Assembly (NCBI GenBank): GCA_937951135.1 | Contig: CALFCI010000117.1 | Location: 1 to 44,635 of the forward strand | Length of the DNA stretch: 44,635 nucleotides | From: an uncultured Aquimarina sp. | Lineage (GTDB): Bacteria > Bacteroidota > Bacteroidia > Flavobacteriales > Flavobacteriaceae | Direction: 5' to 3' | Shown: positions 7,386-24,028 of the stretch, in pieces | How the letters are laid out: every line of letters starts with the position of its first letter | How positions within the stretch are numbered: position 1 is the first letter of the stretch | Notes under the pieces: generated by a model | The model's database searches: none | Told to the model about the DNA's origin: nothing | The model's input: the letters and a program-made list of their open reading frames with translations, nothing else | Translations under genes and position numbers: made by a program

Positions 7386-7461
7386 TAGATATAAACGCTA
7401 ACCTTTATTCAAGACATCTAGCTTTCCCTATCTTTACAAACTCAAATAACACCAAATTATA

Positions 7462-8070
7462 ATGCTCATTATAGGAATCGCCGGAGGAACTGCTTGCGGC
7501 AAAACAACAATCATCGCACAGCTAGTTACTGCATTTGCTAACGATGAGATTACTGTGATCTCACAAGACGATTATTACAAAGAAACCAATCACCTGAGTA
7601 CAGAAGAACGAATCGCTATCAATTTTGACCATCCAAGCGCTATCGATTTTGAACTGTTAACACAACATCTTATTAGCCTACAACAAGGCAATACTATCGA
7701 ACGACCTGTATACTCTTTTATCACTCATAATCGCACAACAGAAACAGTAGCTATAAAATCTTCTAGAATTTTAATCATAGAAGGAATCTTACTATTATCA
7801 CAACCACAACTAAGAAATTTAATAGATCTCAAAATTTTTATTGATGTAGATGCTGATGAACGTTTAATTCGAAGATTAAAACGAGATATGAATACCCGAG
7901 GAAGAAGTATGGAGCAAGTATTGGATCAATATCTACAGACCATAAAACCAATGCATGAACGGTATATAGCCCCTACAAAAAAGTTCGCAGACCTCATCAT
8001 TTCTAATCCCGATTCAATTTCTCAAGCGGTAACGATACTTAAAGCATCTATTCAAAAACATTTAGATTAA
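7462..8070 (+). CDS. udk: Uridine kinase
   Basis: The 202-residue product has the nucleoside-kinase P-loop GIAGGTACGKTT at residues 5-16, the QDDYYK segment, NFDHPSAIDFELL, the RPVYSFITHNR substrate loop, IIEGILLL, and the lid RRLKRDMNTRGRS. These match the uridine/cytidine kinase family, which phosphorylates uridine and cytidine with ATP or GTP in pyrimidine salvage. The length is typical. The DivIC-like gene follows after 75 bases on the same strand, and the two may share a transcript. Confidence 0.95.
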   Translation: MLIIGIAGGTACGKTTIIAQLVTAFANDEITVISQDDYYKETNHLSTEERIAINFDHPSAIDFELLTQHLISLQQGNTIERPVYSFITHNRTTETVAIKSSRILIIEGILLLSQPQLRNLIDLKIFIDVDADERLIRRLKRDMNTRGRSMEQVLDQYLQTIKPMHERYIAPTKKFADLIISNPDSISQAVTILKASIQKHLD

Positions 8071-13010: not shown

Positions 13011-13892
13011 ATGAATTACAAAGCAAAAATGCTTCGAGATGGAGCCTTAAAAGGAAAAAATATTATTGTTACTGGCGGTGGCAGTGGACTGGGAAAAGCC
13101 ATGACTGAGTATTTTTTAGAACTCGGTGCTCAAGTTGCCATTACCTCTAGAAACCTTGAAAAATTACAAAAAACTGCAGCTACCCTTTCTGAAAAAACGG
13201 GAGGTGTTTGTATTCCTATTCAATGTGATGTAAGGGAATATGAACAAGTAGAAGCCATGAAGGATAAAACACTTAAAGCTTTTGGCACTATTGATGTATT
13301 ATTAAACAATGCAGCAGGAAACTTTATCTCACCAACAGAGCGGCTCTCTGCAAATGCTTTTGATACCATCATAGACATTGTTCTTAAAGGATCCAAAAAC
13401 TGCACACTTGCTATTGGTAAACATTGGATTGACACCAATTATAAAAACACCGTTGTATTAAATATTGTAACCACTTATGCTTGGACAGGATCTGCTTATG
13501 TAGTACCCAGTGCTACAGCAAAAGCAGGAGTACTTGCAATGACGCGATCTTTAGCCGTAGAGTGGGCTAAATACGGAATGCGTTTTAATGCTATTGCTCC
13601 AGGCCCCTTTCCTACAAAAGGCGCATGGGATCGATTGCTACCAGGTGATTTAAAGGAAAAAATTGACCTTAAAAAACAAGTTCCTTTAGAACGTTTTGGA
13701 GAGCACCAAGAATTGGCAAACCTAGCAGCCTACTTAGTTTCTGATTTTTCTTCCTATGTGAATGGTGAAGTAATTACCATAGACGGAGGAGAATGGTTAA
13801 AAGGTGCTGGTCAATTTAATTTACTAGAGCAAATTCCTGAAGCAATGTGGGATCAACTTGAAGCCTTCATTCGAGCAAAAAAAGAGGGCTAA
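13011..13892 (+). CDS. SDR family oxidoreductase, 2,4-dienoyl-CoA reductase type
   Basis: The 293-residue protein is a classical short-chain dehydrogenase with the TGGGSGLG cofactor motif at residues 21-28 and an NNAAG motif. It lacks the usual YxxxK: the segment reads VVPSATAKAGV, and a tyrosine lies earlier in TTYAWTG. This arrangement, together with KYGMRFNAIAPGP, ELANLAAYLVSDFSSYVNG and the final WDQLEAFIRAKK, matches what I recall of the eukaryotic-type 2,4-dienoyl-CoA reductase (DECR) group. DECR enzymes reduce 2,4-dienoyl-CoA with NADPH during breakdown of polyunsaturated fatty acids. The position after the mutase genes suits acyl-CoA metabolism. Substrate specificity within the DECR/enoyl-reductase group is not certain. 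Confidence 0.85.
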   Translation: MNYKAKMLRDGALKGKNIIVTGGGSGLGKAMTEYFLELGAQVAITSRNLEKLQKTAATLSEKTGGVCIPIQCDVREYEQVEAMKDKTLKAFGTIDVLLNNAAGNFISPTERLSANAFDTIIDIVLKGSKNCTLAIGKHWIDTNYKNTVVLNIVTTYAWTGSAYVVPSATAKAGVLAMTRSLAVEWAKYGMRFNAIAPGPFPTKGAWDRLLPGDLKEKIDLKKQVPLERFGEHQELANLAAYLVSDFSSYVNGEVITIDGGEWLKGAGQFNLLEQIPEAMWDQLEAFIRAKKEG

Positions 13893-13996
13893 GACGTAAA
13901 GATTATGCTGCGCTAAGACCACAAGAAATGAAGACTGCAATGTACTGAGATCATTAGAAAAGTAGTGCATGCTAAAACATTGTATCTCTTCAATCT

Positions 13997-14091
13997 AAGC
14001 ACATGACAAAAAATCATAACAATTTAATTTTCAGAAACATAAATAGAGTTTAATAATAAAGAGAATTTTTATTTATTTTTTCAGTCTTGTC
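13997..14091. repeat. Second, truncated copy of the MITE-like repeat
   Basis: From taagcacatgac through the A run, aatcataacaattt, ataaatagagtt, and the T-rich end before agtcttgtc, this segment aligns with 7197-7299 with scattered substitutions. The right-hand terminal inverted repeat of the first copy is absent here; other repeat sequence follows instead. Confidence 0.55.
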
Positions 14092-14139
14092 CCGAATCGG
14101 GGGTTAAAATAGTAACGTGAGTTCGATTCATCCAAAATG

Positions 14140-14251
14140 CGTCAGTTTGAGTGAAATTCTGATAAGAATTTAGTATCGAACCTTTTCCTTCGTCAGAGCC
14201 TGTCTTGAGTTTATCGAAAGGCTCACAACAGGCTGTCAGGCTCAAGATGAC
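14140..14251. repeat. Dispersed intergenic repeat with imperfect hairpins
   Basis: The segment starts cgtcagtttgagtg and ends caggctcaagatgac. Internally agcctgtcttgag is opposed by ctcacaacaggct, forming an imperfect stem. From memory, closely similar cgtcagttcgagtg and gcctgtcttgag sequences recur between genes in many Flavobacteriaceae. No other full copy was noticed in this window. Confidence 0.5.
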
Positions 14252-14459
14252 AACATTTTGGAATCAAAAATCTATCCGTCTATTCATCTTCTTGTCTATT
14301 CATCTACCCATACTATTTTTATAAAAAAAACTACCTTCCAAAAACCATGAATCCACTGATAATCTTTGATATCAACAAAATTTAAGGCAACTGTTAATAC
14401 TTTTCATTTTTATACTGTATAATTAATCGTATTTTTACTTCTTAATCCAAATCTCCTAT

Positions 14460-15224
14460 ATGGGCAAAATTATAGCAATCGCCAATCAAAAAGGTGGAGT
14501 AGGTAAAACTACAACTTCCGTGAATTTAGCGGCTTCCCTTGGTGTTTTAGAAAAAAAGGTGCTCCTTATTGATGCTGACCCTCAGGCTAATGCAACTTCA
14601 GGACTTGGAATAGATGTAGAAAGTGTAGAGAAAGGAACCTACCAGATTCTTGAGCATACAGCAAAAGCAAGTGAAGTCATCATAGGAACCAAAGCCGTAA
14701 ATGTAGATATTATTCCTTCACATATTGACTTGGTCGCTATTGAAATCGAACTTGTAGATAAGGATGAGCGTGAGTATATGCTTAAAAAAATAATTCAGGA
14801 AGTACGATCCAAATATGATTATATATTAATCGACTGTGCTCCTTCTCTTGGGTTACTCACATTAAATGCTCTAACTGCTGCAGATTCTGTGATTATTCCA
14901 ATTCAATGTGAGTACTTTGCATTAGAGGGGTTAGGAAAATTACTCAACACGATTAAAAGTGTTCAAAAAATACATAATAAAAATTTAGATATAGAAGGAT
15001 TGCTACTTACGATGTATGATTCTAGATTACGCTTATCAAATCAAGTCGTAGAAGAAGTACAGAAACATTTTAATGAAATGGTATTCAAGACTATCATTCA
15101 GCGAAATATAAGATTAAGTGAAGCTCCAAGTTATGGAGAAAGCATTATCGATTATGATGCTTCAAGTAAAGGAGCGAACAATTACTTAAGTTTAGCAAAC
15201 GAAGTTATAGTTAAAAATAGTTAA
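14460..15224 (+). CDS. parA: ParA family chromosome-partitioning ATPase
   Basis: The 254-residue product has the deviant Walker A KGGVGKTTTSVNLA at residues 11-24, the DADPQANATSGLG motif A', and LIDCAPSLGLLTLNAL as Walker B. The C-terminal part includes RLSEAPSYGESI. It lacks an N-terminal helix-turn-helix extension, so it is the chromosomal Soj/ParA type. ParA forms an ATP-dependent dimer on DNA and moves ParB-parS complexes. parB follows after 9 bases in an apparent operon. Confidence 0.96.
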   Translation: MGKIIAIANQKGGVGKTTTSVNLAASLGVLEKKVLLIDADPQANATSGLGIDVESVEKGTYQILEHTAKASEVIIGTKAVNVDIIPSHIDLVAIEIELVDKDEREYMLKKIIQEVRSKYDYILIDCAPSLGLLTLNALTAADSVIIPIQCEYFALEGLGKLLNTIKSVQKIHNKNLDIEGLLLTMYDSRLRLSNQVVEEVQKHFNEMVFKTIIQRNIRLSEAPSYGESIIDYDASSKGANNYLSLANEVIVKNS

Positions 15225-15233
15225 AAAGGATTC

Positions 15234-16142
15234 ATGGCGAAGGCAACAAAAAAACAAGCACTAGGACGAGGACTCTCAGCACTACTTAAAGATCCCGAGA
15301 ACGATATCACCTCTGCAAATGATAAAAATGCAGATAAAGTAGTTGGAAATATTATTGAATTGGAATTAGAGAGCATTGAGGTAAATCCATTTCAACCTCG
15401 AACCAGTTTTAATGATGAAACATTACAACAACTGGCAACATCTATTCAACAAATAGGTGTTATTCAACCGATTACCGTTCGGAAATTAGAATTCAACAAA
15501 TATCAACTGGTCAGTGGAGAACGCCGATATAGAGCCTCTAAACTTTCTGGATTAAAAACAATACCTGCATATATTCGTATTGCTAATGATCATGATTCTT
15601 TAACCATGGCATTGGTAGAAAATATCCAACGTCAGGATTTAGACCCTATAGAAATAGCATTATCATACCAGCGACTACTGAATGAAATCGATTTAACTCA
15701 AGTACAATTGAGTGACCGTGTGGGTAAAAAGCGATCTACTATTGCAAACTATTTGCGTTTATTAAAATTAGACCCTATTGTACAAACTGGTATTCGAGAT
15801 GGTTTCATTTCTATGGGACATGGCCGAGCATTAATCAATGTAGAAGATCCTTCATTACAATTAGACCTTTATGAAAAAATAGTTAGTGATGCGCTGTCTG
15901 TTCGTAACACTGAGCAATTAGTCCGGTCTTTACAACAAAATACTGATGCAACACCAGTACTATCGACTCCAGAAAAAGCAACTCCAGAATATGTTACTTC
16001 AGGAGTTCGAGGATTCTCTGAATATTTTGGAGCTAAAATCGATGTTAAAGTATCTGGAAAAGGAAGTGGTAAATTAATCATCCCTTTTGCGTCAGAAGAA
16101 GATTTTAAACGCATAATGAAATTGATCCATCGTGAAGATTAA
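15234..16142 (+). CDS. parB: ParB/Spo0J chromosome-partitioning protein
   Basis: The 302-residue product starts with the ALGRGLSALL segment that typically contacts ParA. The ParB/Srx CTP-binding domain follows, with NPFQPRTSF, SGERRYRASKLSG and ALVENIQRQDLDPIEIALSYQ. A helix-turn-helix region (VQLSDRVGKKRSTIANYLRLLKL) recognises parS, and a C-terminal dimerisation part ends GKGSGKLIIPF. No obvious parS palindrome was found in the window. The last 11 bases overlap the next gene, suggesting coupled translation. Confidence 0.96.
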   Translation: MAKATKKQALGRGLSALLKDPENDITSANDKNADKVVGNIIELELESIEVNPFQPRTSFNDETLQQLATSIQQIGVIQPITVRKLEFNKYQLVSGERRYRASKLSGLKTIPAYIRIANDHDSLTMALVENIQRQDLDPIEIALSYQRLLNEIDLTQVQLSDRVGKKRSTIANYLRLLKLDPIVQTGIRDGFISMGHGRALINVEDPSLQLDLYEKIVSDALSVRNTEQLVRSLQQNTDATPVLSTPEKATPEYVTSGVRGFSEYFGAKIDVKVSGKGSGKLIIPFASEEDFKRIMKLIHRED

Positions 16143-19973: not shown

Positions 19974-20207
19974 ATGGATATAAAATTATGGCTCAAAGAG
20001 CGTATTGCTGAAGAAACTGATATTGCGATAAGCCAAATATCAGGTGACCAAGAATTTAGTGAATTTAATATGGATTCTTTATCGACACTGACTTTAGCTT
20101 TTGATCTAGAAGCACTTCTAGGTATAGAGGAACTAGACCCTACCGTTTTTTCGGAATATAACACTATTAACAAACTAGCTGCATGGATAGAACAGCGTCA
20201 AAAATAA
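19974..20207 (+). CDS. Acyl carrier protein of an accessory P450/MBOAT cassette
   Basis: The 77-residue acidic helical protein has the phosphopantetheine site NMDSL with Ser35. The surrounding helices (WLKERIAEETDI, LAFDLEALLGIEEL and the closing INKLAAWIE) fit the carrier-protein fold. It is not likely to be the fatty-acid-synthesis AcpP: its sequence departs from the AcpP pattern around the serine (DSLSTLTLAF rather than DSLDTVELVM), and it stands directly before a P450. Its end overlaps the P450 gene by 25 bases in another frame, so the two are probably translationally coupled. The role inferred is to carry the acyl or aminoacyl substrate for the P450 and membrane acyltransferase encoded next. 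Confidence 0.88.
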   Translation: MDIKLWLKERIAEETDIAISQISGDQEFSEFNMDSLSTLTLAFDLEALLGIEELDPTVFSEYNTINKLAAWIEQRQK

Positions 20208-21385
20208 TTTGGAGTCCTTATACCAAAGGATACTTTAACAACCCGTATATACATCTTAAAGAATGTCGAGAACAAAACCCTATTCACAAAGGGATTCATA
20301 AATCATGGATGTTTTTCACCTATAGTGATGTGAACTCAATCATACGATCTAATGAATTTGAAGCATCAGAACTAAGTAAATATTTAGTTGAAAAAGAACC
20401 ATATATCTTTAAAAACACAGATATATGTCCTTATCTATCTAAAGGGACTCAACAATGGCCAATGTACCTCAATGGAAATCCTCACAAAAATTCCAGAGCA
20501 ATCATGGGAAAGTCACTTCATACTGCGGATTTAACTACTATTATAACAGATGCAGTTCATCATACTAATCATAAATACCAAGATAGTACCGCCTTTGATT
20601 TGGTGAATTATTGTGGTTATTTTATTTTTTTAGTCACACAAAAATTATTTGGTTTTAAAGACTCTGAGTCTTATGAGGATATAAAAAAGTATTCTAATAT
20701 GTTGGCTCGAAGTCAAGACCTATTTATACCAAAGCAAGTATATACTGAAATTAATTCTTGGTTTTTATGGGGGAAAGATATTTTTCCTGAATCTATATAC
20801 AAAGAAAATATCACCAAATTAAGTGAAGATTTGGGGTTAAATTATACCGATGATGATATCTATTCGATATTATCAATTTCAACAATGGCTGCTTTTGAAA
20901 CGTCTAAAGACAACCTTACAATTGCTTTATATGAGATCCTAAAAGACCCTAAATTAATTCCTTCTATAGTAGATAGCAATACAAAAGGACTACACCTATT
21001 GATTGAAGAGTTATTTCGATATTCGTCTCCATTACAATACACCGTTAGAGTAAATAAAAAGGAATTCGCCCATAATGAGATTACTATTCCTGCAAACTCA
21101 AAATTATACTTATGCCTAGCTAGTGCCAATCGAGACCCTGAAAAATTTGAAAACCCAGATAGTATCATTCCAGATAGACAACACAATGAACACCTAGCTT
21201 TCGGTGGAGGAAATCATTTTTGTTTGGGAGCTCAAATTGCTCGACAGGAAATGAGACTATGTTTACAACCCATGGTTCAATTTTTAAAAAACTATACTAT
21301 CGATGAATCTGAAAACATAAAATGGGGAAAACAAATTTTTATGCGAACTGTAGAAGCATTACCATTAATTAAAAAACCGGTATAA
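20183..21385 (+). CDS. Cytochrome P450
   Basis: The 400-residue soluble bacterial-type P450 has all main signatures. The I-helix oxygen-activation motif is AAFETS at 236-241, the K-helix ExxR is E276 to R279, and the heme loop is FGGGNHFCLG at 340-349 with proximal Cys347. The start at 20183 lies within the ACP gene and gives the usual short lead-in before YFNNPYIHLKECREQNP. No ferredoxin or ferredoxin-reductase gene is in the window, so electrons must come from elsewhere. Its overlap with the ACP gene suggests, by analogy with BioI and amino-acid hydroxylases of peptide assembly lines, that the substrate is bound to the carrier. Reaction and substrate are unknown. Confidence 0.93.
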   Translation: MDRTASKIIWSPYTKGYFNNPYIHLKECREQNPIHKGIHKSWMFFTYSDVNSIIRSNEFEASELSKYLVEKEPYIFKNTDICPYLSKGTQQWPMYLNGNPHKNSRAIMGKSLHTADLTTIITDAVHHTNHKYQDSTAFDLVNYCGYFIFLVTQKLFGFKDSESYEDIKKYSNMLARSQDLFIPKQVYTEINSWFLWGKDIFPESIYKENITKLSEDLGLNYTDDDIYSILSISTMAAFETSKDNLTIALYEILKDPKLIPSIVDSNTKGLHLLIEELFRYSSPLQYTVRVNKKEFAHNEITIPANSKLYLCLASANRDPEKFENPDSIIPDRQHNEHLAFGGGNHFCLGAQIARQEMRLCLQPMVQFLKNYTIDESENIKWGKQIFMRTVEALPLIKKPV

Positions 21386-22771
21386 ATGATTAGTCTTAAT
21401 TTAGTCCTAATCATCTTATATATATTTTCTTCTGGCATACTGCTTTTCTTATTTACAGAGAAAAACCGTTGGAAAGCATTGCTAATTACCAGTCTATTGT
21501 TTTACTACCTACTGGTGGGGTATACCGTTATTTTATTAATAGGATTAGCCTATCTGATATATCGATTTAGCTTTAAAATAGAAAAAAAGCCTAATCTTAT
21601 TAGACTAGTAACTATAATCTTATTACTTCCTTTACTACTATCAAAAATCACAAATACAGATACTCATTTTGAAAACTACAACGCTAGAAACATATCCATT
21701 ACGGAATGGTTAAATTGGATTACTATATTTCAAGTCATTGGTTTATCTTATTTTACGTTTAATGGAATTAGTTATTTAGTTGATATCAAACGAAAATATA
21801 TTCAACCGGAAAAGAATTTTTTTTTCGTTTTATTATACCTTATCTATTTTCCAGCCATCTTTTCTGGGCCTCTCCATCGAGCAAAATATCTATTTTCTCA
21901 ATTTAAAACCATTCAAGTCTCTAATACCTCTATTTCCTGCGGAATGCGATTAATCTTATGGGGGTTATTTAAAAATATAGTACTTGCTCAAAGGATTTTC
22001 AACCTAATGACTTTTTTATTGGAATCAGATATCACTGGTTTCTATTACCTTATAACAGGTTTACTTTTTTTCCTATACTTATATTGTAACTTTAGTGCTT
22101 TCATTGATTTCTTTCAAGGAGTTTCCTTACTTTTTGGTATTCAGTTAAAAAACAATTTCAAAAACAGAGTGTATTTATCGGCATCTAGACAAGAATTTTG
22201 GAAAGGCTGGCATATTACACTTAATGAATGGTTTAGAGATTATTTTTTCTTTAGTATAGCTAAGCATGACAAAAAAAGAAGATATACAGACCTACTATTA
22301 CTCATCACATTTTTACTAATCGCGTTATGGCATGAGTTGTCAACTACATTAGTATTATGGGGTACGTTAAATGGGTTATGGATCATTTTTGAAAAAAAAA
22401 TAAATTTCAAAAAGTTTCCATTTCCAAAACTCCGAAAAGTCGTAGGCGTAGTATACCATCTTTTATTTTCATGTATACTCGCCCTGATTTTTATTTCTCC
22501 AGATGTCATTACTTTATTTGAAACAGTATTCATGTCTCCTTCCTTTTTTCCATTAGCAATACTAGAAAAACAAATTACTGCTATAATTATTATACTTTTA
22601 TGCTTTATCATAATGGACTATCATTATGATAAAGCTAAAGATTTAAGATTTGATAAATATATTGGTCATAAACCGCTTTGGATAAGATGGTTTATCTATA
22701 TAAAAATAGTAGTACTCATACTGCTGTTTGGATTAAGTGGAGGAATCGATAATTATTATATTCAATTCTAG
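21386..22771 (+). CDS. MBOAT family membrane O-acyltransferase
   Basis: The 461-residue protein begins on the base after the P450 stop. Many hydrophobic segments are visible. The MBOAT signature is FWKGWHITLNEWFRDYFFF (His276), and the likely catalytic histidine is His316 in ALWHELSTTLVLWGTLNG. The second conserved histidine that many AlgI-type proteins have in WGxxHG is Asn here. SYFTFNGISYLVDIKRK and FPAIFSGPLHRA match the DltB/AlgI blocks. DltB and AlgI move acyl groups across the membrane for O-acylation of teichoic acid or alginate. With a carrier protein and an SGNH partner next door, a similar role on a cell-surface acceptor is inferred. Confidence 0.92.
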   Translation: MISLNLVLIILYIFSSGILLFLFTEKNRWKALLITSLLFYYLLVGYTVILLIGLAYLIYRFSFKIEKKPNLIRLVTIILLLPLLLSKITNTDTHFENYNARNISITEWLNWITIFQVIGLSYFTFNGISYLVDIKRKYIQPEKNFFFVLLYLIYFPAIFSGPLHRAKYLFSQFKTIQVSNTSISCGMRLILWGLFKNIVLAQRIFNLMTFLLESDITGFYYLITGLLFFLYLYCNFSAFIDFFQGVSLLFGIQLKNNFKNRVYLSASRQEFWKGWHITLNEWFRDYFFFSIAKHDKKRRYTDLLLLITFLLIALWHELSTTLVLWGTLNGLWIIFEKKINFKKFPFPKLRKVVGVVYHLLFSCILALIFISPDVITLFETVFMSPSFFPLAILEKQITAIIIILLCFIIMDYHYDKAKDLRFDKYIGHKPLWIRWFIYIKIVVLILLFGLSGGIDNYYIQF

Positions 22772-22778
22772 AAATGGT

Positions 22779-23717
22779 ATGCAAATAAAACAGTCTTTAC
22801 TAAAATGTGGTGGTTTTCTTATCATTATTTCTAGTCTTATATTTATAACTAAGAAAAATAATCCCACCTCAGACAATCTTGATATTCTCAATGCCATACA
22901 AACGATAAAAAGCACAAATACGCCTTCATTCTATTTTATAGGTTCTAGTAGAGTGCAAAGAAGTATTAACCCTCAAATCATAACAACACATTTTAAGAAC
23001 ACATCTGTTCAAAACCTAGGCATTAGTGGTGCTACTTTTCTTTGTAATGCAATCATAGCAGATTACATTATAAGAAATCAAAGTCCAAAAGTAGTATTTA
23101 TTGAATTATCACCTATATTATCATCGTTTCCAAAACCTTTTATCGAGTTTATTGATGCTGTAAATATTGATATTTCCTCAGTGATAAGTACATTCCCAAA
23201 AAAAGAAAGTTTTCGAAAACAAGTTGAATTCAGAATGGAGCTACTCAATCAATATCTATTCAATACTATTTTAGTAAAAGAAGATATTAAAAAAATAATA
23301 GCTTATGATTCTCTAAGAAAAAATAATGCAACAACGATAGGGTTTACCACATCAAAAGAAAATAAATTTCACAATACCTCCTCATTTATCACTTTTAGTG
23401 AAATCATAACACCTCTAGATAAAAAACTAAATGATTACCAGAATTATATTAATCATTTAGTTACATTAGGAGCAAAAAAAAGAACCAAAGTTATATTTTT
23501 TTTACCGGTCACTTATAGAAAAGAAAAAGAGAAAGAAACAGTTATTTCTATGTATCAAAAGCTACCTGATAGCCTTAAAATCATGTATTCTAAAGAGTTC
23601 ATAAATGATATAACTAATGCCAAGTACCTATTAGACAAAAACCACTTTAACACAAAAGGTGCAACTGCCTATACCAATCTGCTCTGCCCTATTATTGAAC
23701 AATATCTACTACCATAA
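22779..23717 (+). CDS. SGNH-fold membrane-anchored protein, DltD/AlgJ-like partner
   Basis: From the ATG at 22779 the product is 312 residues, starting 8 bases after the MBOAT stop. An earlier GTG at 22737 is in frame but would overlap the MBOAT gene. An N-terminal hydrophobic anchor (residues 11-24) is followed by IGSSRVQRSINP with candidate nucleophile Ser56, NLGISGATFLCN (block II Gly/Asn region), VIFFLPVTYR, and the C-terminal DKNHFNTKG with Asp286 and His289 as the DxxH pair. This arrangement is typical of SGNH esterases and acyltransferases such as DltD and AlgJ/AlgX that act outside the membrane with an MBOAT protein. I did not recognise a narrower family. Confidence 0.82.
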   Translation: MQIKQSLLKCGGFLIIISSLIFITKKNNPTSDNLDILNAIQTIKSTNTPSFYFIGSSRVQRSINPQIITTHFKNTSVQNLGISGATFLCNAIIADYIIRNQSPKVVFIELSPILSSFPKPFIEFIDAVNIDISSVISTFPKKESFRKQVEFRMELLNQYLFNTILVKEDIKKIIAYDSLRKNNATTIGFTTSKENKFHNTSSFITFSEIITPLDKKLNDYQNYINHLVTLGAKKRTKVIFFLPVTYRKEKEKETVISMYQKLPDSLKIMYSKEFINDITNAKYLLDKNHFNTKGATAYTNLLCPIIEQYLLP

Positions 23718-23719
23718 CA

Positions 23720-24028
23720 ATGATTCAAACGCTCTTACACTACGGCTGTCATTTTATCATCCCCTTAGGCATTGCGTTATGGATATACCCTAAACGCTGG
23801 AAGTACGTATACCTTGTTTTTATAGGTAGTATGGCAATCGATTTAGATCATTTGTGGGCTACTCCTATTTTTGACTCCAGTCGATGTAGTGTGGGATTTC
23901 ATGCATTGCATAGCTACACTGCAATTGTAGTATACGGTATCTTACTTATCCCTAAACACACACGAATCATAGGAATCGCGTTACTGTGGCATATCATTAC
24001 AGACCAAATGGATTGCTGGATGATGTGA
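23720..24028 (+). CDS. DUF6122 family small membrane protein
   Basis: The 102-residue hydrophobic protein has about three membrane segments, the motif GSMAIDLDHLWATPIFD, and a histidine-rich continuation (GFHALHSY, LWHIITDQMDC). The Asp/His pattern resembles membrane metal-dependent hydrolases of the YdjM/LexA-binding type, but no activity is proven. It starts 2 bases after the SGNH gene stop, so it can be translated as part of that operon. I recall homologues lying next to WbqC and lepB in relatives that lack the cassette, so it may be the old neighbour of WbqC. It converges on the EEP gene at 24050. Confidence 0.8.
   Translation: MIQTLLHYGCHFIIPLGIALWIYPKRWKYVYLVFIGSMAIDLDHLWATPIFDSSRCSVGFHALHSYTAIVVYGILLIPKHTRIIGIALLWHIITDQMDCWMM

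Follow-up and report, generated by a model that had tools for sequence, protein, structure and literature searches.

A four-gene ACP-P450-MBOAT-SGNH cassette in Aquimarina and other Bacteroidota: a candidate Dlt-like system for the export of oxidized acyl groups

Described acylation systems and the cassette

One of the closest described counterparts of the locus considered here is the Dlt system (DltA, DltB, DltC, DltD and DltX), by which teichoic acids are D-alanylated. The locus lies in a 44,635-nucleotide stretch of an uncultured Aquimarina sp. (contig CALFCI010000117.1 of assembly GCA_937951135.1; the whole stretch is hereafter called the window) and consists of four genes, termed the cassette, for an acyl carrier protein (ACP), a cytochrome P450 (P450), a membrane-bound O-acyltransferase (MBOAT) and an SGNH protein. 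Shared with Dlt are a carrier with a phosphopantetheine-bearing serine, a DltB-like MBOAT, a DltD-like SGNH protein and the logic of an acyl-tyrosine shuttle. The cassette differs from Dlt in that neither DltA nor DltX adjoins it, the MBOAT itself carries the shuttle tail, a P450 gene is included, the linked ligase, where there is one, is of the fatty acyl-AMP type, and the organisms are Bacteroidota. Since DltA and DltX are not linked, the cassette can be described as Dlt-like in its working without being a Dlt system. The balance leans slightly towards an envelope acylation system of this kind, in which a carrier-bound fatty acyl group would be oxidized and then exported, perhaps to a polysaccharide acceptor.

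MBOAT-SGNH O-acetyltransferases such as PatAB, as portrayed in the relevant passages of PMC12148441, likewise combine a shuttle hexapeptide at the C-terminus of the MBOAT, which at 15 of 17 cassettes differs in its first residue, with a separate SGNH protein, and use acyl-CoA with no carrier protein. Unlike such pairs, the cassette has a linked ACP and a linked P450 in 17 of 17 loci. Regarding the P450, the nearest solved relative by structure, and the second by sequence profile, is P450BioI, which oxidizes acyl-ACP for biotin. However, identity is about 22%, no biotin gene is found among the named neighbours, and the cassette P450 gene is overlapped by a dedicated ACP gene, whereas BioI uses the housekeeping ACP. 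Starter modules of fatty acyl-AMP ligase and ACP, known from lipopeptide and polyketide pathways, share with the cassette the type of ACP, the position of a ligase upstream of the ACP in two loci (L109 and L166) and, in Nostoc, a P450 placed after a ligase-ACP fusion. In the cassette, however, the place of a polyketide or peptide synthetase after the P450 is taken by the MBOAT and SGNH genes, and no synthetase occurs among the Pfam-named neighbours of the 17 cassettes, which are part of all the neighbours. A carrier-P450-MBOAT-SGNH cassette was not found described in the open-access papers searched, which were judged in part by title and do not include most subscription papers and preprints. 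The main text of a review on fatty acyl-AMP ligases mentions neither MBOAT nor P450 (PMC11837247), and the P450 is likewise unmentioned in the passages dealing with DltB-DltC (PMC11035591) and with the choice of ACP by the ligase (PMC8460268).

In the window, the four reading frames lie where the initial annotation, made from the DNA letters alone, had placed them:

19974 to 20207, plus strand: ACP of 77 amino acids (Pfam PP-binding, 1.9e-11)
20183 to 21385, plus strand: cytochrome P450 of 400 amino acids (Pfam p450, 2.1e-19)
21386 to 22771, plus strand: MBOAT membrane O-acyltransferase of 461 amino acids with a DltB-like core (Pfam MBOAT, 1.6e-14)
22751 to 22768, plus strand: C-terminal acyl-shuttle hexapeptide NYYIQF (MBOAT residues 456-461), with Tyr458 as the likely acyl-accepting residue
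22779 to 23717, plus strand: membrane-anchored DltD-like SGNH acyltransferase, 312 amino acids from the ATG (assigned by motifs and predicted structure)

The ACP and P450 frames overlap by 25 bases, the P450 and MBOAT genes abut, and 7 bases separate MBOAT from SGNH. Residue invariance was counted in 15-row alignments of the cassette proteins, and the first three sets of functional residues proposed earlier hold there without exception, i.e., the phosphopantetheine Ser35 of the ACP (in DSL, codon 20076-20078), the heme ligand Cys347 of the P450 (codon 21221-21223), and His276 and His316 of the MBOAT.

Conservation of the gene order

The 17 distinct loci (the window, L077-L082, L102-L109, L165 and L166) hold the best-scoring relatives of the P450, and at every one of them the order is ACP, P450, MBOAT, SGNH, in differing contexts. 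The ACP and P450 frames overlap by 22-28 bases in 15 of the 17, and no fifth gene is common to all. Because these loci all keep the other three genes in one order, the four genes look like one unit, beyond chance; the co-occurrence of the four families, which the initial annotation had named as a test, is thus found.

The source genome (G000, Flavobacteriaceae, 3.11 Mb, 78% complete) is among 66 genomes of its genus that were searched. The P450 occurs at 61-100% identity in seven of these, all seven with the four genes. Six cassettes lie between WbqC and DUF6122 genes, two of them with an extra gene between WbqC and the ACP, while the seventh, in G824, has an identical gene set at another site with other neighbours. 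The extra gene, of about 305 amino acids, is divergent and stands at 12350-13267 in L079 and 11211-12125 in L080, both from Aquimarina; the L079 copy is without a Pfam match. In the window, the order by Pfam is parA, parB, DUF5683, dapB, lepB, WbqC, the cassette, DUF6122 and an endonuclease/exonuclease/phosphatase gene. The content of guanine and cytosine is about 0.30 in the cassette and about 0.35-0.38 on both sides, with a further stretch of about 0.31 at 39-42 kb. Thirteen cassette-free lepB loci were compared, 12 from non-carriers and one from G824, in a draw that was not random: WbqC is followed directly by DUF6122 in 11, and no DUF6122 was found beside WbqC in the other two. The DUF6122 gene of the window (23720-24028) begins 2 bases past the SGNH gene, and is excluded from the cassette because it is kept at the site in 11 of the 13 cassette-free loci.

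Beyond the genus, a pattern scan of 84,980 species genomes, which undercounts distant members, returned 50 stretches with the pattern and 13 loci with a relative. Five of these are from Aquimarina. The eight others, all with the four genes in order, come from Chryseosolibacter, Mucilaginibacter, Microscilla, a Saprospiraceae metagenome-assembled genome (MAG), a Cytophagaceae MAG, two Aquirufa and a Cytophagales MAG. L108 is the locus of Aquirufa nivalisilvae. Searching 24 genomes around the Cytophagales MAG added L165 and L166, together with three weaker P450s. In the Chryseosolibacter locus (L102), an open reading frame (ORF) resembling phage Gp49 (DUF891) lies upstream of the cassette at 7444-7878, a hint of mobile DNA nearby.

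With a P450 profile built from 14 of the 17 loci plus L109, the cassette loci score 231-720 bits, L166 being the lowest at 231. Next come the P450s of two Nostoc plasmids (216 and 223 bits), G797 (176) and Streptomyces (159-173). A threshold of 200 bits was rejected, as the Nostoc P450s exceed it; the score alone fails to divide the groups, and L166 is therefore counted by its neighbours. At 34 lower-scoring P450 loci (L092, L162-L164 and L003-L032), no ACP or MBOAT match was found in the stretch examined, roughly 1-1.5 kb beside the gene for all but L092. The G797 P450 (L092, 24% identity) was rejected as a cassette relative, an ACP or MBOAT match being absent nearby, and two Streptomyces neighbourhoods are without ACP or MBOAT, one by annotation and the other by a map at E 1e-3. 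On the two Nostoc plasmids, the related P450 stands directly after a ligase-ACP fusion and is followed by polyketide or peptide synthetases, with no MBOAT annotated in these stretches. The initial annotation had also considered that ACP and P450 might belong to a larger biosynthetic cluster. This is not the case in the present P450 group, but the nearest P450s outside it, those of Nostoc, do sit in such clusters.

The cassette is rare. The P450 passes 1e-40 in the source genome only among 395 genomes of the phylum, and a close copy was likewise found only there among 397 genomes of the family. With the ACP profile, 228 phylum genomes yielded at 1e-9 matches in two, i.e., the source genome (at two places) and one with a match within a frame of 1914 amino acids; ACP-MBOAT-SGNH without a P450 was not seen in this search. 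No relatives were found in viral contigs, and the PADLOC defence library gave nothing. Among the plasmid matches listed, identity to the window P450 is at most 27%, and to the L109 P450 up to 38.5%.

Exporter pair and possible acceptors

Against the NCBIfam DltB model, the MBOAT of the window reaches 8.2e-30 and 104 bits, below the model's cut-off of 375, and at E up to 1 the MBOAT profile matches nothing in the PDB except two sequences of DltB (1.7e-31 and 1.9e-31). Solved DltB covers positions 14-355 of the 461 in the profile, so that a C-terminal part is left over, as described for PatA. According to the passages of PMC12148441 on the shuttle, the acyl-accepting tyrosine of PatA lies in a C-terminal FXYXXF, a motif that Dlt carries on DltX. 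The tail of the cassette MBOAT stands where PatA and DltX have this motif. Tyr458 and Phe461 are invariant in the alignment, and the tyrosine and last phenylalanine are kept in all 17 loci. The tail reads NYYxxF in 14 of the 15 aligned cassette MBOATs, FFYYQF in L109, NYYLAF in L165 and FYYFQF in L166. No separate DltX microprotein would fit into the cassette of the window, given the gaps between its four genes; the motif ends the MBOAT instead.

The SGNH protein has no Pfam match over the cut-off. Its AlphaFold model (predicted local distance difference test score, pLDDT, 82) has eight Foldseek matches in the PDB with E < 0.001, all of them DltD chains, with modest TM-scores (0.35-0.43) and a high root mean square deviation. 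An N-terminal helix covers residues 2-25. Ser57 (codon 22947-22949) and His289 are invariant. The initial annotation had named Ser56, Asp286 and His289; His289 is upheld, and for the nucleophile Ser57 is a likelier choice than Ser56: position 56 is a threonine in L105, and position 57 a serine in 15 of 15 rows. The DltB match, the DltD-like fold and the shuttle tail together support the Dlt-type core that had been proposed.

Possible acceptors can be sought among the neighbours. Capsule or sugar genes adjoin the cassette in six loci (L106, L107, L108, L165, L109 and L166). Wzi-like capsule genes lie beside it in the first four, with a glycosyltransferase gene near L107 and L165 and an epimerase gene near L107, while the L109 cassette adjoins a glycosyltransferase gene and the L166 cassette a mannose-1-phosphate guanylyltransferase gene. 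In L102, an epimerase-fold gene lies two ORFs from the cassette. Other neighbours are an MFS transporter, a CBM9 protein and a helicase-like protein in L082, and DUF5071 in L103. In the Saprospiraceae MAG (L105), an apolipoprotein N-acyltransferase gene (13835-15466) stands on the opposite strand about 340 bases past the SGNH gene of the cassette.

It can be asked whether the acceptor is a polymer at all. The cassette might make and export a small acylated molecule, such as a lipid or an acyl sugar, the acceptor of the SGNH protein then being soluble or a lipid instead of a polymer of the envelope. This appears unlikely, even if lipopeptide and polyketide pathways are where the related P450s and ACPs belong and the cassette has no constant polymer gene as a neighbour, as no further gene is common to the 17 loci, six of them are flanked by the capsule or sugar genes, and the MBOAT-SGNH pairs treated in the passages of PMC12148441 are known for polymer acylation.

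Carrier load, oxidation and the proposed route

Under the preferred reading, i.e., envelope acylation with an oxidized fatty acyl group, the load of the carrier is the first point to be considered. The best PDB relatives of the ACP profile are 4hkg, 2n98, 2afd and the Pks13 ACP, which places the cassette ACP nearest to ACPs of lipopeptide and mycolate pathways; we take 4hkg to be of the Acinetobacter A1S_0114 family and 2n98 to be LipD of friulimicin. In the part of PMC5376624 that concerns it, A1S_0114 is required for a lipopeptide-like compound bearing a hydroxylated C15 acyl group, and according to the relevant section of PMC9113097 a fatty acyl-AMP ligase together with a free-standing ACP initiates daptomycin- and friulimicin-type pathways. 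Two cassettes have such a ligase:

L109, 3468 to 5237: ligase of the fatty acyl-AMP type, immediately preceding the cassette ACP gene (Pfam AMP-binding and PF23024)
L166, 10465 to 12222: ligase of the fatty acyl-AMP type, immediately preceding the cassette ACP gene (Pfam AMP-binding and PF23024)

Their matches to the NCBIfam fatty-acid-AMP ligase model (1.7e-137 for L109 and 3.1e-136 for L166) are both below the cut-off of that model. The MBOATs of this five-gene form keep the canonical FxYxxF tail. Linkage of a fatty acyl-AMP ligase in 2 of the 17 cassettes suggests that the load is a fatty acid. As a fixed partner of the cassette the ligase was rejected, PF23024 being present in 3 of 15 carriers vs. 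6 of 12 non-carriers (over the cut-off in five of these six). Copies of PF23024 outside cassettes lie in a polyketide cluster in G000 and in a peptide-synthetase cluster in G778. The former (L156, contig C160, 1763-12347) has a fatty acyl-AMP ligase, an ACP, an acyl-CoA dehydrogenase and a polyketide synthase in a row, and among the 228 genomes searched its ACP ranks second in matching the ACP profile of the cassette. The latter (L158, contig C57, 3930-12093), from a cassette carrier, has a fatty acyl-AMP ligase, an acyl-CoA dehydrogenase, an ACP-like gene and a peptide synthetase with thioesterase, and is likely a lipopeptide cluster.

With regard to other loading enzymes, an AMP-binding motif scan of the window and 17 other carrier records found none save one ORF of 315 amino acids at L107. 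In Microscilla (L104, 13603-15228), an acyl-CoA ligase gene of the medium/long-chain kind follows SGNH after 96 bases on the same strand; it may encode a loader or be a chance neighbour. Three small cassette-carrying genomes (G840-G842) have four AMP-binding enzymes each (E up to 1e-20). These were typed by model from one of each kind, taken from G841 or G842, as an acetate-CoA ligase, two FadD-like enzymes and one acyl-CoA/malonyl-CoA synthetase-like enzyme, and none is a clear loader. A linked D-alanine ligase DltA was not found, the linked ligases being of the fatty acyl-AMP type (L109 and L166) or an acyl-CoA ligase (L104). Contig C4 of G807, a cassette-carrying genome, harbors two DltA-like adenylating enzymes that stand alone and are separated by about 22 kb (L150 and L151).

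An amino or hydroxy acid on the carrier, nearer to Dlt, with a P450 that oxidizes this small group, is a highly improbable alternative to a fatty acid. DltB and DltD as the nearest solved structures for MBOAT and SGNH would agree with it, as would the two DltA-like ligases elsewhere in G807. The type of the ligases linked in L109 and L166 argues against it, as do the absence of DltA from the best 25 families for the four typed AMP-binding proteins of two small carrier genomes and the fact that P450BioI, the nearest fold to the P450, was solved with fatty acyl-ACP.

In the P450, the I-helix pair Glu239-Thr240 and the ExxR residues Glu276 and Arg279 are invariant along with the heme ligand; the acid-alcohol pair fits an oxygen-activating monooxygenase. 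When its AlphaFold model (pLDDT 88.6) is compared with the PDB, P450BioI-acyl-ACP complexes are the best 12 of 1642 rows (12 chains of three entries, E 4.4e-23 to 3.4e-22), followed by CalO2 (8.9e-21). By sequence profile, PksS ranks first and BioI second. The fold is common to all P450s, and the BioI match therefore ranks candidates and is no proof of substrate; the dedicated ACP gene overlapping the P450 gene in 15 of 17 loci is a stronger hint of an acyl-ACP substrate than the fold.

As to the origin of the pair, a P450 tree groups the cassette, Nostoc and Streptomyces sequences, with one long-branched ordinary row (L031), against 29 ordinary Bacteroidota P450s (support 100/100). The 15 rows of the four-gene form are one clade (100/100), whereas L109 and L166 branch apart, long or weakly placed, with L166 nearer to Nostoc and Streptomyces (88/86); L166, L109 and L031 are the long branches. 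Considering the linked ligases of L109 and L166, the Nostoc loci and this tree, the ACP-P450 pair probably derived from ligase-ACP starter modules, perhaps more than once. The Nostoc P450s, sitting in synthetase clusters, fit such an origin.

The MBOATs of the cassette can also be set against ordinary ones of Flavobacteriaceae (n = 29), of which 28 end in F[IL]YFQF, the remaining one being truncated by masked letters. In a tree of 15 cassette and 29 ordinary rows, from which L165 and L166 are absent, the two groups split with support 100/97; L109 lies between them and the other 14 cassette rows are one clade (100/100). Other MBOATs of 397 family genomes have at most 36% identity among the matches listed. 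It is thus most doubtful that the cassette is two adjoining modules, with MBOAT and SGNH O-acetylating a polymer from acetyl-CoA like PatAB and with ACP and P450 making something else, since ACP-less MBOAT-SGNH pairs are indeed common in the family (an ACP match in 0 of 29 ordinary loci in the stretch examined, a neighbour matching the SGNH profile in 19) but both halves are kept in one order at 17 of 17 cassettes in differing contexts, the cassette clade has its private NYYxxF tail, and no cassette-type MBOAT without a P450 was seen among the matches listed for the 397 genomes.

Envelope acylation with an oxidized fatty acyl group can then be pictured as follows, from parts and a linkage that are observed, each transfer step being modelled on Dlt and PatAB. 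The holo-ACP would receive a fatty acyl chain, supplied in the five-gene form by the linked fatty acyl-AMP ligase and in the four-gene form by a host enzyme. The P450 would dock on the acyl-ACP in the manner of P450BioI and oxidize the chain, most simply by hydroxylation. As in Dlt, the ACP would pass the oxidized group on to the MBOAT at its cytoplasmic face, and the MBOAT would transfer it to Tyr458 of its own C-terminal tail, with a chemistry like that of PatA and DltX. The DltD-like SGNH protein would take the group on Ser57 and esterify an extracytoplasmic polymer, for which the genomic context points most readily to capsule or exopolysaccharide. We infer in this way the substrate, product and acceptor of the cassette, and with them the oxidation of the acyl group and its export to the surface.

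Several observations weigh against this picture. With regard to the load, the absence of an adenylating enzyme noted in the initial annotation gives way at L109 and L166 but stands for the 15 other loci, in which no fatty acyl-AMP ligase is linked, and a PF23024 match is wholly absent in 12 of the 15 cassette-carrying genomes searched. The P450 substrate is guessed from a modelled fold of a kind that all P450s have, and a redox partner is absent among the four genes. In the exporter, the first phenylalanine of the shuttle motif is replaced by asparagine in 15 of 17 loci and kept only in L109 and L166, and Asp286 of the SGNH protein, the third residue named earlier, is replaced by asparagine in two of 17 (L108 and L165). 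For 11 of the 17 loci, among them the window, no directly adjoining capsule or sugar gene was identified, many neighbours being mapped as ORFs only. As for the delimitation of the group, a clear score gap is missing, L166 barely exceeding the Nostoc P450s of synthetase clusters, and the P450 tree does not show L109 and L166 in one clade with the other 15. Moreover, the loci were found via the P450, so that copies without it would be missed save by the MBOAT (397-genome) and ACP-profile (228-genome) searches.

A more far-reaching proposal, whose chances seem a little short of even, is that the cassette represents a third route of envelope acylation, i.e., a non-Dlt, carrier-dependent MBOAT-SGNH system adding fatty acyl groups that are oxidized on the carrier by a dedicated P450. 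Its origin would lie in the combination of an MBOAT-SGNH exporter with a starter module of lipopeptide-type pathways, made up of fatty acyl-AMP ligase, ACP and P450; most carriers would since have lost the ligase and, along with it, have changed their shuttle motif from FxYxxF to NYYxxF. If this is true, Dlt-like transmembrane acyl transfer from a carrier would not be confined to D-alanine, and a P450 would be able to modify an acyl group on its carrier for use at the cell surface. The natural motif variant NYYxxF would provide a testable case for the acyl-tyrosine shuttle model, and the starter modules of natural products would be linked to the modification of the envelope.

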